Source of the DNA: Chlorella sorokiniana
Lineage: Eukaryota; Chlorophyta; Trebouxiophyceae; Chlorellales; Chlorellaceae
NCBI GenBank assembly: GCA_025917655.1
Contig: CP084611.1
Location: forward strand, 3,596,001-3,660,000
DNA length: 64,000 nt
Reading direction: 5' to 3'
Positions 58,266 through 63,847 of this stretch are shown one piece after another (position 1 is the stretch's first letter; each line of letters opens with the position of its first letter). The position numbers and the translations under genes are program-made. Under the pieces are notes generated by a model. The model worked only from the letters and a program-made list of their open reading frames with translations, was not told where the DNA came from and did not search any database.

Positions 58266-60877
58266 TCAAAGTAAGTGTTTGTAGTTCTCCAGCCATGGTA
58301 TTGTGCAATCAACATTCTTGGCGCTGCTTGCCAGCTCCTTAAACTCCTTCTCAATCTGCATGGGGGCAAAAAAATGCTTGAGGGGAACAGACATGCGCAC
58401 ATGCTTGCATCCACTACCAGGTTTCGAGGCACACCCCCGCCCACCTTGGCCAGCTCCTCGTCAACATCAGCGTCGAGAGGCTCCTCCTTCCTGGCAGCCT
58501 CCTCTTTGCGCGATCGCGCCTTGGCCTCTTTGGCAATCTTCTCGAGGTTCTTCTCCCGATTTGTTTCCCGCTCCAGCATCTGCACCAGCTGCCGCCAGCA
58601 CATGAGCACCCAGCCAGCATGCGCCCCACAATGAAGGCTCGTGACCTCAGGCGGCAACCCTGTGCTCACCCCGCTGATGAGTGCCTTTTCGTTGTCCTGA
58701 ACCTCCACCAATCCCTGTGACAGCTGTAACAGCGAGACGGCGCCGTCGTGACAGGCCACGCCGGCCAAGCGCTGCGCGGCGCCACCGCCGCCCTGGATGG
58801 CCAGCGCTGTGAGTGGATGCTCTGACACCTTGACCGACAGCACCGGCTGCTTGTGCTTGTAGTAGTAGTCCCAGGCGGTGAGCACGCCGCCGTGACTGAT
58901 GGTGTACAGCACGCCGGGCCGGCTGGGGCTCCAGCAGCCGCCCATCAGGTAGGTGGGCGCGTACGGCGTGGCCATGATGGGCGTGCGCACGTCCTCGTTC
59001 CACAGCCGAACCGCCCAGTCGGCCACCGACAGGAAGAACTTGGGGAAGAAGGGGTGGCGGGAGAGGGCCATGACGCCGTTGTAGTGGCCTGCGGGGGCAG
59101 GGCAGCCAGCAGTCAGCGGGCACGGTCCACGCCTGGCGCTGCTGGGACTGCGCACTGGGATGTAACTCCCTGCTGCGGTGCCAGGGCCTCGCAGCACAGC
59201 AGTGTGGCCAGGCTCCAGAATTGTAGGGGTGGAGGCAGTGTGACACCCCCAGGGCGTGATTGCTGCATCCTCACCGGAGTAGGTGGTGGTTATGCGGTCT
59301 GCGGGGTCTTGGCCTTGCGGTTGCCTGCAACAATGAGGCCCTGCTCGGTGCCCACCATGAACTTGGTGGTGGCCCCGGCCGCGGGGCTGTACTCCAGGCA
59401 CATGCCGCCCAGCGAGGCCTCGCCACCCTTCTCCACCGCCAGCGCAAGCTCCTCCAGCGGTTCCCCAAGCTTGCGCAGGTCCCACCACAGCACCGAGCCG
59501 TCGATGGAGGTGCTCATCAGCTCGGTGGAGGCCTTGGACTGCGTCCACGCAAAGTCGTACACGGGGTGCGGTGCGTGCGGTCGGCGCGGGTGGCCTCCAC
59601 GGGGCGGGCCCCTTGCGAAGGTCAAACAACGTGATCTGCCCGCTGAGCTGCCCCGCGCCAATGAGGTTGTGGTCCTTGTTGTTGTAGTTCAGCACCGTCA
59701 GCGCGGACAGCGGCGACAGCGTGGCCTCGGGCTTGCTCGGGTTGGTTGCGTTCCAGATGTAGCTGTCTGTGGGTGTGCCCTCGGTGTGCTTCTGGAACTC
59801 CATGATGCCATAGGCCACAGCAACCCGCCCGCTGCCATCGGGGTGCCAGGACAGCCCCAGCGCGCTGCGCTTGATGGCAGACGGGTCCCGCAGGATGGTC
59901 AGGGTGCGCATGGAGGGCGGCTCGCAGAAGTGCTGGCCCGGCATGTCTGCATGCATGGGCGCATGAGCATGAGCGCCGCAACATTCACGGTGTGGTTGCC
60001 CCTCACTAGGGGCAGAAGCCACGGTGCCAGCGGCAGGGAGCCCAGGAGCCACCCCTGCCTCCCCAACCAGCGCCCACCCGCAAAGTACTGCTCGTAGATG
60101 TCGATGGCGTTGTTCTGCTTCACGAGGCCCTCCACCACGGCCCCCAGACGCACCACCTGCTTGATGTAGTCCTCGTCCTTCTCCACCTTGCGCCTGAAGC
60201 GGATGACCTGCTCCACCTCGGTGTGGTCCACCTCCTTGGGCCAGCCCCCTCCACGTGGCTCATGCCGCTGCTCACCAGCACAACCGCTGTGGTGTTGGCC
60301 TGCGCATTGCCCGAGCCCAGGGCAGCAACAAAGAACACTGTATGGCTGACGCCCAAGCTTCAGGAGGCCAGGGAGGCCTATTGGCATCCATCACGCAGGT
60401 TTCCGTGCCCCCTGCACTCACGTCGTGCTCTGACATGTCGGGAGCGGCTTGCACGGCGGCAGCGGTCTGTGATTTCACGATCCAAGCCTTTGCGTGCTCC
60501 TCATTCGGCCGAAGGTCGAGCAGCAGCTGCACAGGCGTGGCACACGCAGGCGCCCAGGTATTGAGGCCTGACCAAAAGCAGAGCTCAATGTCCCTCGCCC
60601 TGCACCTCACCTCAGCTCCTTGATCTGTAAACCTCGGGTGCCTGCCAAACTGGCGGCGCTGTTTCACATAACGATAGCCAACCTGCAACGCACAAAGCGG
60701 GTGTGGGGGTGGTGGGGGAGGGGGCTGGGGCCGGGCGTCCAGCAGCGACGGGAGGGCGGGCGGTGGTTCCTGTCACTGCATCCTACGGAACCGGCAGCGA
60801 GCACGGGCGCTTATAGGTGTCTTTGCTACTGCTAAAGCAAAATTGAGCAGCGAACGGCCGCCGAGGAGCACCTCCAT
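58266..60877 (-). CDS. DNAI2: Axonemal outer-arm dynein intermediate chain (DNAI2/IC2)
   Basis: WD-repeat intermediate chain that docks outer-arm dynein on flagellar doublets (Chlamydomonas IC69/ODA6). The probable start is a 6-base coding exon ATG-GAG (60877-60872) with donor GT. It is spliced to an exon starting near 60683, giving [20 protein letters not shown], close to the animal start. Then come [204 protein letters not shown] and [20 protein letters not shown]. The last exon is [14 protein letters not shown] to stop 58266-58268. Slips near 59567 and 59607 each lack one base. Confidence 0.9.
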
Positions 60878-61249: not shown

Positions 61250-62644
61250 TTAAGTCGCGTGGTTCTGCGGCGTCGCTTTGCTGCTTCCCAGCTTCGCCGC
61301 TTCCAGGCCCTGGTCCAGCCGCATGCCCACCAGGATGGCTGCCACCAGCGCCCACATCTGGGGCTGCAGGGTGGCCAGGGACACGAGGGCGGGGCCCGGG
61401 CAGACGCCGCCGTAGCCTGCACGGCAACACGGCCCAGCAGTGCTTGCGTCAGGCACAGCTTGGCTGGAGGTGGGCGGACGAGGCAGCAGAGGCCTCACAC
61501 CCACACACTTCCCCGCTGGGCCCGCACCCGCACTCACCCCAGCCCGCTCCAAACACGGCGGCCCCCAGGAGCAGGTCAGCATCCACCGCCGTCTTGGAGG
61601 GCAGCTCGTAGCATGGTGCGCAGCGCGGCGCGGTGAGGCGACGCAGCGTCAGCTGGAAGCCGGGCAGGGCCACCAGCAGCGCGCCGCCCATGACGGCGGC
61701 AAGCGTGGGGTCCCAGGAGCCGGCCAGCACCGACAGGAAGCCGGCCACCTTGGAGGGCTTCAGCATGCCGCTCACGCCCAGCCCCAGCGCAAACAGCAGG
61801 CCGATGAAGAGGTCGGCGGCGGTGCCCAGCGCGGCCAGCTTCTGCGCATCGGCGGACGCAGGCGGCGGCACCCCGTCAGCGGCGTCTCCTCCAGCGCACC
61901 CGCCTGCTTCAGCTCGGCCTGCAGTGCCACCGGCGTGGGGGCGCGCTGCGGCGCCGTCAGCCGCCGAGCGGCCGCCGTGAGGAGCAGGAAGACGGCGGCG
62001 GCCGCCGCCAGCAGCGCGCCGCCAAACACCGCCGTGCCGCTCAGGCTGCCCAGGGGCTCCAGCGGCGCGATGCCCCGCGGCATGGAGAAGACCGCCGCTG
62101 TGTCGGCCGCCTTGGCCACCAGCGCGCCGGAGGCCATGAAGGTGAGGGTGGCCGCCAGGGAGCGAGGGCTCAGGCGCGCGTTGCCGCAGACGCCGTGGCC
62201 AGAGGTGCAGCCCGACCCGCGAGACGAGCCCAGCCCCACCAGCAGGCCCGCCAGCACCGCGCGCTGCAGCGTGAACGCCGGAGGCAGCACCTCAAAGGCG
62301 CTGGGCAGCGCCGCGCGCAGCAGCACGCCGCCCGCCAGCAGGCCGGCAAGGAAGGCGACGCGCCACGCCTCGCTCGCTCCGCGCACCACGCCGCGCACAG
62401 CGCCCGAGATGCCCAAGACGCGGCCCGTCAGGCGCAGCTTGGCATACGCCATCAGGCCCAGGGTCAGCCCGCCCAGCAGGCCCTCCACCGGTGTGAAGAA
62501 GAAGCTTGACTCAGGCGCTAACATGGCCGCAGCGGCAGAGACGCAGGTGGGCTGGCAGGGGCGGGGGCGCTGTGCAGTGCGCACGAGCTGGGGCTGGATG
62601 GCACGTCGGGACACTGCAGAGTCAGGAATGTAGACAAGCAGCAT
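61250..62644 (-). CDS. YeeE/YedE-family (Sul_transp) transporter
   Basis: Polytopic membrane protein of the family that carries thiosulfate or related sulfur compounds (bacterial TsuA/YeeE); bacterial YedE relatives have been proposed as selenium transporters. ATG 62644 gives a Ser/Arg/Gln leader that could target an organelle; ATG 62524 (MLAPESSFFFTPVEGLLGG) is an alternative. Helical blocks: GLTLGLMAYAKLRLTGRVLG, WRVAFLAGLLAGGVLL, the signature GSGCTSGHGVCGNARLSPRS, LAATLTFMASGALVAKAA, GTAVFGGALLAAAAAVFLLL, then after a slip at 61871-61874 (one G missing in coding sense) LAALGTAADLFIGLLFALGL and GFLSVLAGSWDPTLAAVMG. Further: LLLGAAVFGAGWG, an intron, and GYGGVCPGPALVSLATL, MWALVAAILVGMRL, with stop 61250-61252. 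Both Cys-bearing half-motifs of the family are present. Confidence 0.85.
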
Positions 62645-63192
62645 GGTTTGTGCTTGGCTGATGGGGCTGTGCAAGCAAATGTGATGCAGGCACATGGGCG
62701 AACAGGCGGTGGAGGGGTGCAACTAGCATTGGCAAGGAAAAATGTCTGGCAGCTCCCACCTTGGCCAACCAGGCGGTGCACCTTGGCAAATGCGCGGCTG
62801 CAGGGCGTGGCGGTGCAAGGTAGGACTTGTTGTGCAGGTCGGCAGGCTTCAACAATTGGCATGGGTCCCCTGGATCGCTCAGGGTGGCGAGGGCTGCAAG
62901 GTTCCGCAGAAGATAATCGACAGTGACTGAGATGGAGGAGTACGCGGTTTTAGTCTCGGTTGCACGTTCGCATAGCGTCACGGCTCTCGCTAACAGGTTC
63001 ACCTCTCGTGAGGTGCAGACAAATTAAAGAAACACAAACTCGACTGCCTTGCGTGCCAATTGCACATTTATGCGATGTTACAAGATCGCGCACGCGGGCG
63101 GAGCCCTGGCCCAGCTGGGGGAAGCTGCGGCGCGCATGGCGGTGAACCACCTTCAACTTCCCGCAGGTGCTCACTCAGCCTGGCGCCATGCC
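62645..63192. other. Intergenic, upstream of YeeE/YedE gene
   Basis: Promoter of the transporter gene and the distal 3' UTR of the DUF3253-type gene. No further gene was recognised. Confidence 0.5.
63078..63082 (-). terminator. UGUAA poly(A) signal, DUF3253-type gene
   Basis: TTACA on + (TGTAA on -), about 205 bases after the TAG stop. This leaves room for the SECIS-like hairpin inside the 3' UTR. Confidence 0.5.
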
Positions 63193-63263
63193 GGTGTAGA
63201 GCGGTTCAGCAGCTTCCTGCCCTCCAAAGAGCTTGTGGGGAGCCGCGTCATGTCAGCTCCACC
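63193..63263 (-). promoter_or_regulatory. Candidate SECIS element
   Basis: Minus-strand 3' UTR hairpin, starting 23 bases after the TAG. Helix I pairs GGUGGAGC (63263-63256) with GCUC-UA-CACC (63202-63193; UA bulges). It can be extended by UGGCGC/GCGCCA further out. The core quartet is AUGA (63251-63248) opposite UGAA (63208-63205), which fits the AUGAN/KGAW rule. Directly above, helix II pairs GCGGCU (63246-63241) with AGCUGC (63214-63209), then C-G pairs after one mismatch. The apical loop carries AA at 63234-63233, 13 bases from AUGA, the expected spacing. Drawn by eye, not computed. Confidence 0.6.
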
Positions 63264-63285
63264 CCCCTCCCCGCGCCAGCGCCTC

Positions 63286-63847
63286 CTAATCCTTCCGACA
63301 GCCAATGTTGCTGCCGCCAGGTGCTAGCCGGAAACGGACTGGCCCTTTGAAGGCATCGGGAGCCACCACCACTCCCTTCTGTGTGATGTGGATGATGCCT
63401 CGTCGAGCTAGCATCCTGCCCACATCCCGCGTGGCCTCCATGAGCTGACGCCAGCGGGTGGGGAAAGCTCGCCGCGGCACCTCGCTGGGTCAGCACGTCT
63501 TCCCTGGACCACGAGCGCGCAGTATCTCTAGCACTGTGCGCTCCAAGATAGCTAGTTCGTCCTGCATCAAACAGCATGCATGCAGATGGCCCAACCTGTT
63601 GGCAGGGTTGGGACAGGTGCAGCAACTCACTTACCGACGTTGCCGGCAAGCAAGTGCTGTCCTTCTGTATTTCACTGGTGGAATCAATCGCTGGCAAACC
63701 TCGGTCCTCCTGAGCTTGGATTTGCGGTGGGCCAGGCATTCCTGCTGCTTTTCGCCGTTGTCGCTGCTGCCGAGGTTCTTGCACTGCATCCTCGCCAGTG
63801 ATGGCAAGATCTCTTAGTGAAACCGATCTTCCTCGTTTGCTTGACAT
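63286..63847 (-). CDS. DUF3253-like protein with in-frame UGA, candidate selenoprotein
   Basis: Two exons. Exon 1, ATG 63847, reads MSSKRGRSVSLRDLAITGED and an Arg/Gln-rich linker. It ends at a perfect donor (TCG|GTAAGT); exon 2 follows acceptor GATGCAG in phase 0. Exon 2 reads LERTVLEILRARGPGKTC, then UGA (63490-63492), then PSEVPRRAFPTRWRQLMEAT, GRMLARRGIIHITQKGVVV and FKGPVRFRLAPGG, with TAG at 63286-63288. The bacterial DUF3253 pattern I recall (RGPGKT-x-CPSEVAR ... W..LMPAVR ... L...G.I.ITQKG ... GPIRLR) matches on both sides of the UGA, which falls on the family Cys. With read-through the product is about 162 residues with position 95 as selenocysteine; without it the protein loses most of the domain. 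A short winged-helix-like fold is likely. Function unknown. Confidence 0.7.

Follow-up and report, generated by a model that had tools for sequence, protein, structure and literature searches.

We analysed a 64,000-nucleotide (nt) stretch of Chlorella sorokiniana DNA (GenBank assembly GCA_025917655.1, contig CP084611.1, positions 3,596,001 to 3,660,000; hereafter the window, whose first letter is position 1) and found a candidate gene of the DUF3253 family (PF11625), with all its features on the minus strand within 63286-63847, in which one in-frame UGA stands where the family usually has a cysteine. Insertion of selenocysteine (Sec) at this UGA is the best explanation and the locus is very probably a functional eukaryotic selenoprotein gene, because two independent lines agree, namely the alignment of the UGA with Cys and a candidate selenocysteine insertion sequence (SECIS) behind the coding region. 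We infer the decoding from the codon, this alignment, the homology that continues past it and the SECIS-like local fold. The two coding features are:

63286-63561, minus strand: DUF3253 coding exon with the winged-helix domain, 91 codons followed by TAG at 63288-63286 (PF11625, PDB entry 2NS0 and the predicted model)

63490-63492, minus strand: in-frame TGA, candidate selenocysteine codon at the family's usual Cys position (alignment to bacterial loci)

The coding exon (63561-63286 in reading direction, exon 2 of the two-exon model discussed below) reads DELAILERTVLEILRARGPGKTC-UGA-PSEVPRRAFPTRWRQLMEATRDVGRMLARRGIIHITQKGVVVAPDAFKGPVRFRLAPGGSNIGCRKD-TAG. With Cys placed at the TGA, it matches PF11625 with an E-value of 8.8e-23 over residues 6-79, scoring 80.8 bits against a curated cut-off of 22.1. 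The only internal TGA lies at 63492-63490, on the minus strand, and the domain contains, beyond this codon, no second stop and no frameshift. The initial annotation, made from the letters of the window, had described this exon as open but for one UGA, with the family pattern on both sides of it in a single frame; both descriptions are borne out, the homology running on past the UGA. The residue preceding the UGA is Cys, so that the algal protein would hold a Cys-Sec pair.

By searching bacterial genome contigs with a profile built from a two-sequence alignment, we obtained 109 relatives, and the best 80 of them, a set biased towards the query, were retained. First, the UGA column is Cys in all 80 of these loci, encoded by TGC in 70 and by TGT in 10. 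Second, we considered 40 more bacterial loci reached via profile searches, 39 of which aligned (L114 did not), and found Cys in 27, Asp in 3, Glu in 2, Ser in 2, Ala in 2 and a gap in 3. Three of these loci duplicate L021, L028 and L062 of the 80; with the duplicates removed, Cys is present in 24 of 36 further aligned loci. Since these wider members also show Asp, Glu, Ser, Ala or a gap, the Cys of the CPS(E/D) motif is, on the sequences aligned, usual in DUF3253 but not universal. Thus the earlier proposal that the UGA takes the place of the Cys before PSE(V/A) holds throughout the best loci and only in part for the wider family. The residue before this Cys is Ile in 74 of the 80 loci, compared to Cys in the alga. 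One bacterial member (L089) carries KTCCPSEV, which is the window sequence with Cys instead of the UGA. DUF3253 relatives were absent from the viral contigs and phages searched, and ordinary DUF3253 is present in five plasmid records; PF11625 also occurs in Caulobacter vibrioides.

Mean identity to the window domain over the 80 loci is 37% before the UGA (residues 6-23, 79 loci) and 48% after it (residues 25-78, 80 loci). Moreover, 11 of the 13 columns that are invariant in the 80 loci are retained when the UGA is counted as Cys, the exceptions being A29P and A48G. Judged from the sequence, the region past the UGA shows no decay. These data bear on the possibility that the UGA is a real nonsense mutation, either in a recent pseudogene or in a gene whose truncated protein ends there. 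In the predicted model, helices 2 and 3 and the wing strands all lie beyond the UGA, so that a protein ending there would point to a dead gene and not to a short form of the protein. However, conservation after the UGA is not below that before it, neither a second stop nor a frameshift has accumulated, and a SECIS-like element is present, so that we regard a nonsense mutation as quite improbable.

Selenocysteine insertion in a eukaryote calls for a SECIS, and an AUGA...AA...UGA arrangement, first spotted by eye, lies on the coding strand at 63264-63193. This element starts 21 bases past the stop codon, with the AUGA coming after 34 bases. The unconstrained RNAfold minimum of these 72 nt (-25.3 kcal/mol) is the SECIS fold itself, with helix I, an open quartet, helix II, the AA bulge and a mini-stem. 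Its parts, and a motif further downstream, are:

63193-63264, minus strand: candidate eukaryotic SECIS of Form 2 type, bearing an apical mini-stem and located in the 3' untranslated region (UTR), from unconstrained RNAfold and SECISearch-type criteria

63256-63262, minus strand: helix I 5' arm GUGGAGC, 7 bp with GCUCUAC at 63202-63196

63247-63251, minus strand: 5' quartet region AUGAC, with its 3' partner UGAA at 63208-63205

63238-63246, minus strand: helix II 5' arm, with the 3' arm at 63217-63209 and 8 of 9 positions pairable

63233-63234, minus strand: unpaired AA of the apical bulge, 13 nt after the AUGA and followed by the mini-stem at 63232-63219

63078-63082, minus strand: TGTAA, about 200 nt past the stop

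TGTAA is a polyadenylation signal of green algae, and the SECIS candidate would sit within a short 3' UTR ending near it; the motif lends this end point weak support, because it occurs 23 times in the window, counting both strands. Apical mini-stems are reported in almost all "O." (genus abbreviated) in the available part of PMC2375036.

A strict pattern of this architecture has the candidate as its single match in the window, both strands included, and gave no match in 274 kb and none in 1 Mb of random sequence matched in first-order composition. Because this pattern was devised after the candidate had been seen, we next applied the published SECISearch criteria, given in the available part of PMC2375036 as NTGA, 10-13 nt, AA, 15-39 nt and GA, with helices I and II and energies below -12.6 and -3.7 kcal/mol. 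Our run used the AA form alone, with helix-length rules of our own. The candidate agrees with these criteria, having spacings of 13 and 25 nt and energies of -26.8 and -13.8 kcal/mol, and its constrained fold (-26.8 kcal/mol) is only 0.2 kcal/mol above the unconstrained minimum. In the 128 kb of strand that the window offers, the criteria gave two hits, of which the one at 63264-63193 is the stronger. The other, weak, SECIS-like hit lies at 58641-58680 on the plus strand, with an energy of -15.5 kcal/mol, 4.2 above its own minimum fold. The same criteria gave 10 hits in 400 kb of random sequence preserving first-order composition only, that is about 0.006 expected per 250 nt. Two of these random hits reached -22 kcal/mol or better, and none was both at or below -20 kcal/mol and within 1 kcal/mol of its minimum. 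When the pattern was loosened, random sequence was hit 2 to 14 times per Mb under four settings and once under a fifth variant, while up to two other window sites were matched as well (2524-2574 on the plus strand and 52687-52646 on the minus strand). Shifting the quartet pattern by one base missed the candidate and matched 22304-22261 (minus strand) instead. Taken together, the SECIS-like element, on the right strand and with canonical parts at published spacings, and the undiminished downstream conservation support the candidate selenoprotein that had been proposed from the alignment of Cys with the UGA.

A sequencing or assembly error, the true codon being TGC or TGT in an ordinary Cys-containing DUF3253 gene, has to be weighed against these results. 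The remainder of the domain is intact, as it would be in a normal gene, and a neighbouring gene in the window shows a probable one-base slip. An error would nevertheless leave the SECIS-like element, at the right place and on the right strand, unexplained given its rarity in random sequence, and only 1 of the 21 single-substitution routes to a stop in the exon falls on this codon (assuming TGC at the site and weighting the routes alike). We therefore consider an error improbable.

Several observations weigh against the selenoprotein interpretation. First, no match to the Rfam SECIS model was found at the element at E-values up to 10, nor window-wide at gathering cut-offs, with a model whose sensitivity to algal SECIS elements was not gauged. 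Second, once the RNA is longer than the 72-76 nt core, RNAfold favours another fold by 4.8-7.7 kcal/mol, and the other fold is also obtained at 110 nt. With longer flanks, a G-rich stretch upstream pairs with a helix II arm, and the probability of the SECIS helices drops from at least 0.9 (helix I) to near 0. Since the energy model ignores both the non-Watson-Crick quartet and the binding of SBP2 or other proteins, this predicted fold is a caution and not a refutation. Third, there is no in-frame stop among the 99 PF11625 matches listed (43 + 56, from 593 bacterial genomes, part of the first-look candidates having been scored); in one bacterial phylum 43 of 195 genomes have a match to the family, in another 54 of 398. 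Fourth, base errors at the TGA are possible, with a probable assembly slip in a neighbouring gene. Fifth, Trebouxiophyceae and Sphaeropleales hold few selenoproteins (0-5), and Helicosporidium none, according to the available part of PMC7539508. On the other side stands the survey of PMC6627142, in which the sequenced Trebouxiophyceae, Ulvophyceae and Chlorophyceae have a complete Sec machinery, with one exception. ARAGORN found no tRNA gene within the window.

The different long-context fold would also agree with a UGA read in another way, either by ordinary read-through or by reassignment of the codon, in which case the SECIS-like fold would be a coincidence or have another role. In line with read-through, a hairpin at 63445-63492 (minus strand) starts at the UGA, with an energy of -23.4 kcal/mol (z-score -3.3) that 2 of 200 shuffled sequences equalled. 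However, this hairpin is equalled in stability by about 6% of the 48-nt stretches of similar GC content on the minus strand, and other genes of the window match Pfam in standard-code frames, although this was not a dedicated test for UGA reassignment. These alternative ways of reading the UGA appear very improbable to us. For the same reason we rejected a bacterial-style SECIS or redefinition hairpin beside the UGA: the hairpin exists, but it is not unusual for this GC-rich DNA.

If the UGA is indeed read as Sec, the ribosome would decode 63492-63490 on an mRNA carrying the SECIS at 63264-63193, which would recruit SBP2, eEFSec and Sec-tRNA as in known systems. The resulting protein would be small and of the winged-helix DUF3253 type, its Cys-Sec pair immediately preceding helix 2; most bacterial relatives carry a lone Cys there. 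The AlphaFold model has a mean pLDDT (predicted local distance difference test) of 90.1 and a winged-helix order of elements, with the Sec site at residue 24 of the modelled domain, in the turn before helix 2 (27-32). The nearest PDB entry to the model is 2NS0 (template-modelling score of 0.76 by query), the sole PDB match at an E-value below 0.001; by sequence, the same entry is matched with an E-value of 3.1e-14. Weaker structural matches include DNA-binding winged helices (Z-DNA-binding and Fur proteins) and also methyltransferases. Our reading is that this small protein may bind nucleic acids or have a regulatory role, with Cys and Sec acting as a redox pair. Sec would then be a redox-active or redox-sensing residue, possibly forming a selenylsulfide with the Cys.

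Known relatives and known selenoproteins help to place this candidate. The solved Rhodococcus structure of DUF3253 (2NS0) shares the domain, the fold and the motif, and is 41-42% identical. The DUF3253 members examined have Cys at the site, less often Asp, Glu, Ser or Ala, and no stop, whereas the window gene has the UGA. A fusion to DUF2256 occurs in some bacterial members (3 of 4 tested, chosen after their Cys-rich N-termini had been seen), whereas no such domain was found in the window protein. In mammalian thioredoxin reductase, adjacent Cys and Sec form a redox pair; the likeness to our candidate lies in these adjacent residues, while fold and family differ. With the eukaryotic selenoproteins of algae (42 families in the available part of PMC7539508), the candidate shares an in-frame UGA at the family's Cys and a SECIS in the 3' UTR.

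New families of eukaryotic selenoproteins are rare: a survey of 137 algae reported three new ones among 42 (PMC7539508). The DUF3253 gene would be a further one, unless it belongs to the "Hypo" family of PMC7539508 or is related to the three hypothetical proteins of Ostreococcus in PMC2375036. The statement that no selenoprotein had been described in DUF3253 is borne out within the open PubMed Central (PMC) literature, where no paper names DUF3253, none combines DUF3253 with "seleno" and none PF11625 with "selenoprotein". In the same literature, the only match to "selenoprotein", "winged helix" and "alga" together concerns male infertility, and the available main text of PMC7539508 has no word beginning with "DUF".

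Sec is retained mainly where the residue is chemically reactive. Because of this, its presence would, if confirmed, offer a first hint at what the bacterial family DUF3253 does, and would lead one to expect a reactive Cys in the CPSE motif of bacteria as well. To our knowledge, and by these literature searches, no winged-helix selenoprotein is known. It is conceivable, but rather doubtful at this stage, that with DUF3253 a winged-helix, nucleic-acid-binding-like fold is for the first time the basis of a selenoprotein family, the Cys-Sec pair where helix 2 begins acting as a selenium redox or metal switch that controls binding, and the usual Cys being reactive in bacteria too.

The start of the gene allows two models. 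In the two-exon model, two further features precede the coding exon:

63635-63847, minus strand: proposed, tentative exon 1, 71 codons from ATG to GTAAGT, phase 0, with no Pfam match

63562-63634, minus strand: proposed 73-nt GT-AG intron, GTAAGT...GATGCAG, containing a further ATG, at 63567-63565, that is in frame and could serve as the start

The two-exon model (ATG at 63847) is consistent, as the intron joins the exons in phase 0. However, the Pfam scan found no recognisable domain in exon 1, whose third-position G+C is 0.45 versus 0.65, and its assignment from sequence is tentative. In the one-exon alternative, translation would begin at this further ATG (63567), which shares the frame of the domain, giving 93 residues. 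Hence the UGA is residue 95, as the initial annotation had it, in the two-exon model, and residue 26 in the one-exon model. The choice between them leaves the UGA and the SECIS candidate unaffected.

A sulphur-transport gene (PF04143, YeeE/YedE-like; 61500-62722, minus strand) adjoins the candidate on the same strand and changes frame near 61850, probably through a one-base slip or an unrecognised intron. The claim that errors elsewhere in the window are one-base slips was spot-checked at this frame change, which may also be due to an unrecognised intron. For relatives of YeeE/YedE in bacteria, a role in selenium transport has been proposed. In a metagenome-assembled genome (MAG) of Acidimicrobiaceae, the DUF3253 locus (L014:1728-3206) is also adjoined by a Sulf_transp gene; with the protein of that gene as query, it was found in 1 of the 80 loci, and the adjacency may be due to chance. 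Two Acidimicrobiales MAGs (L012 and L048) carry a photolyase-related (DPRP) gene next to DUF3253.

We listed the neighbours for 16 of the 80 bacterial loci and scanned some of them. The set of neighbours changes from one locus to another (amine oxidase, sulphur transport, photolyase-related, glycosylase, glycosyltransferase, peptidases and others), and each of the five bacterial neighbours that we tested occurs in at most 4 of the 80 loci; we therefore drew no function from gene neighbourhoods. Given this variety and the fusions to DUF2256 in some members, we do not assign the protein to a process. PADLOC gave no match on the window, whose GC content, near 68%, fits a green alga, as does the TGTAA. 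A eukaryotic origin also fits other genes of the window: an SNF2 domain that extends across two frames, an Arm repeat and a UDP-glycosyltransferase were matched, with Pfam matches in 4 of the 6 frames tested.
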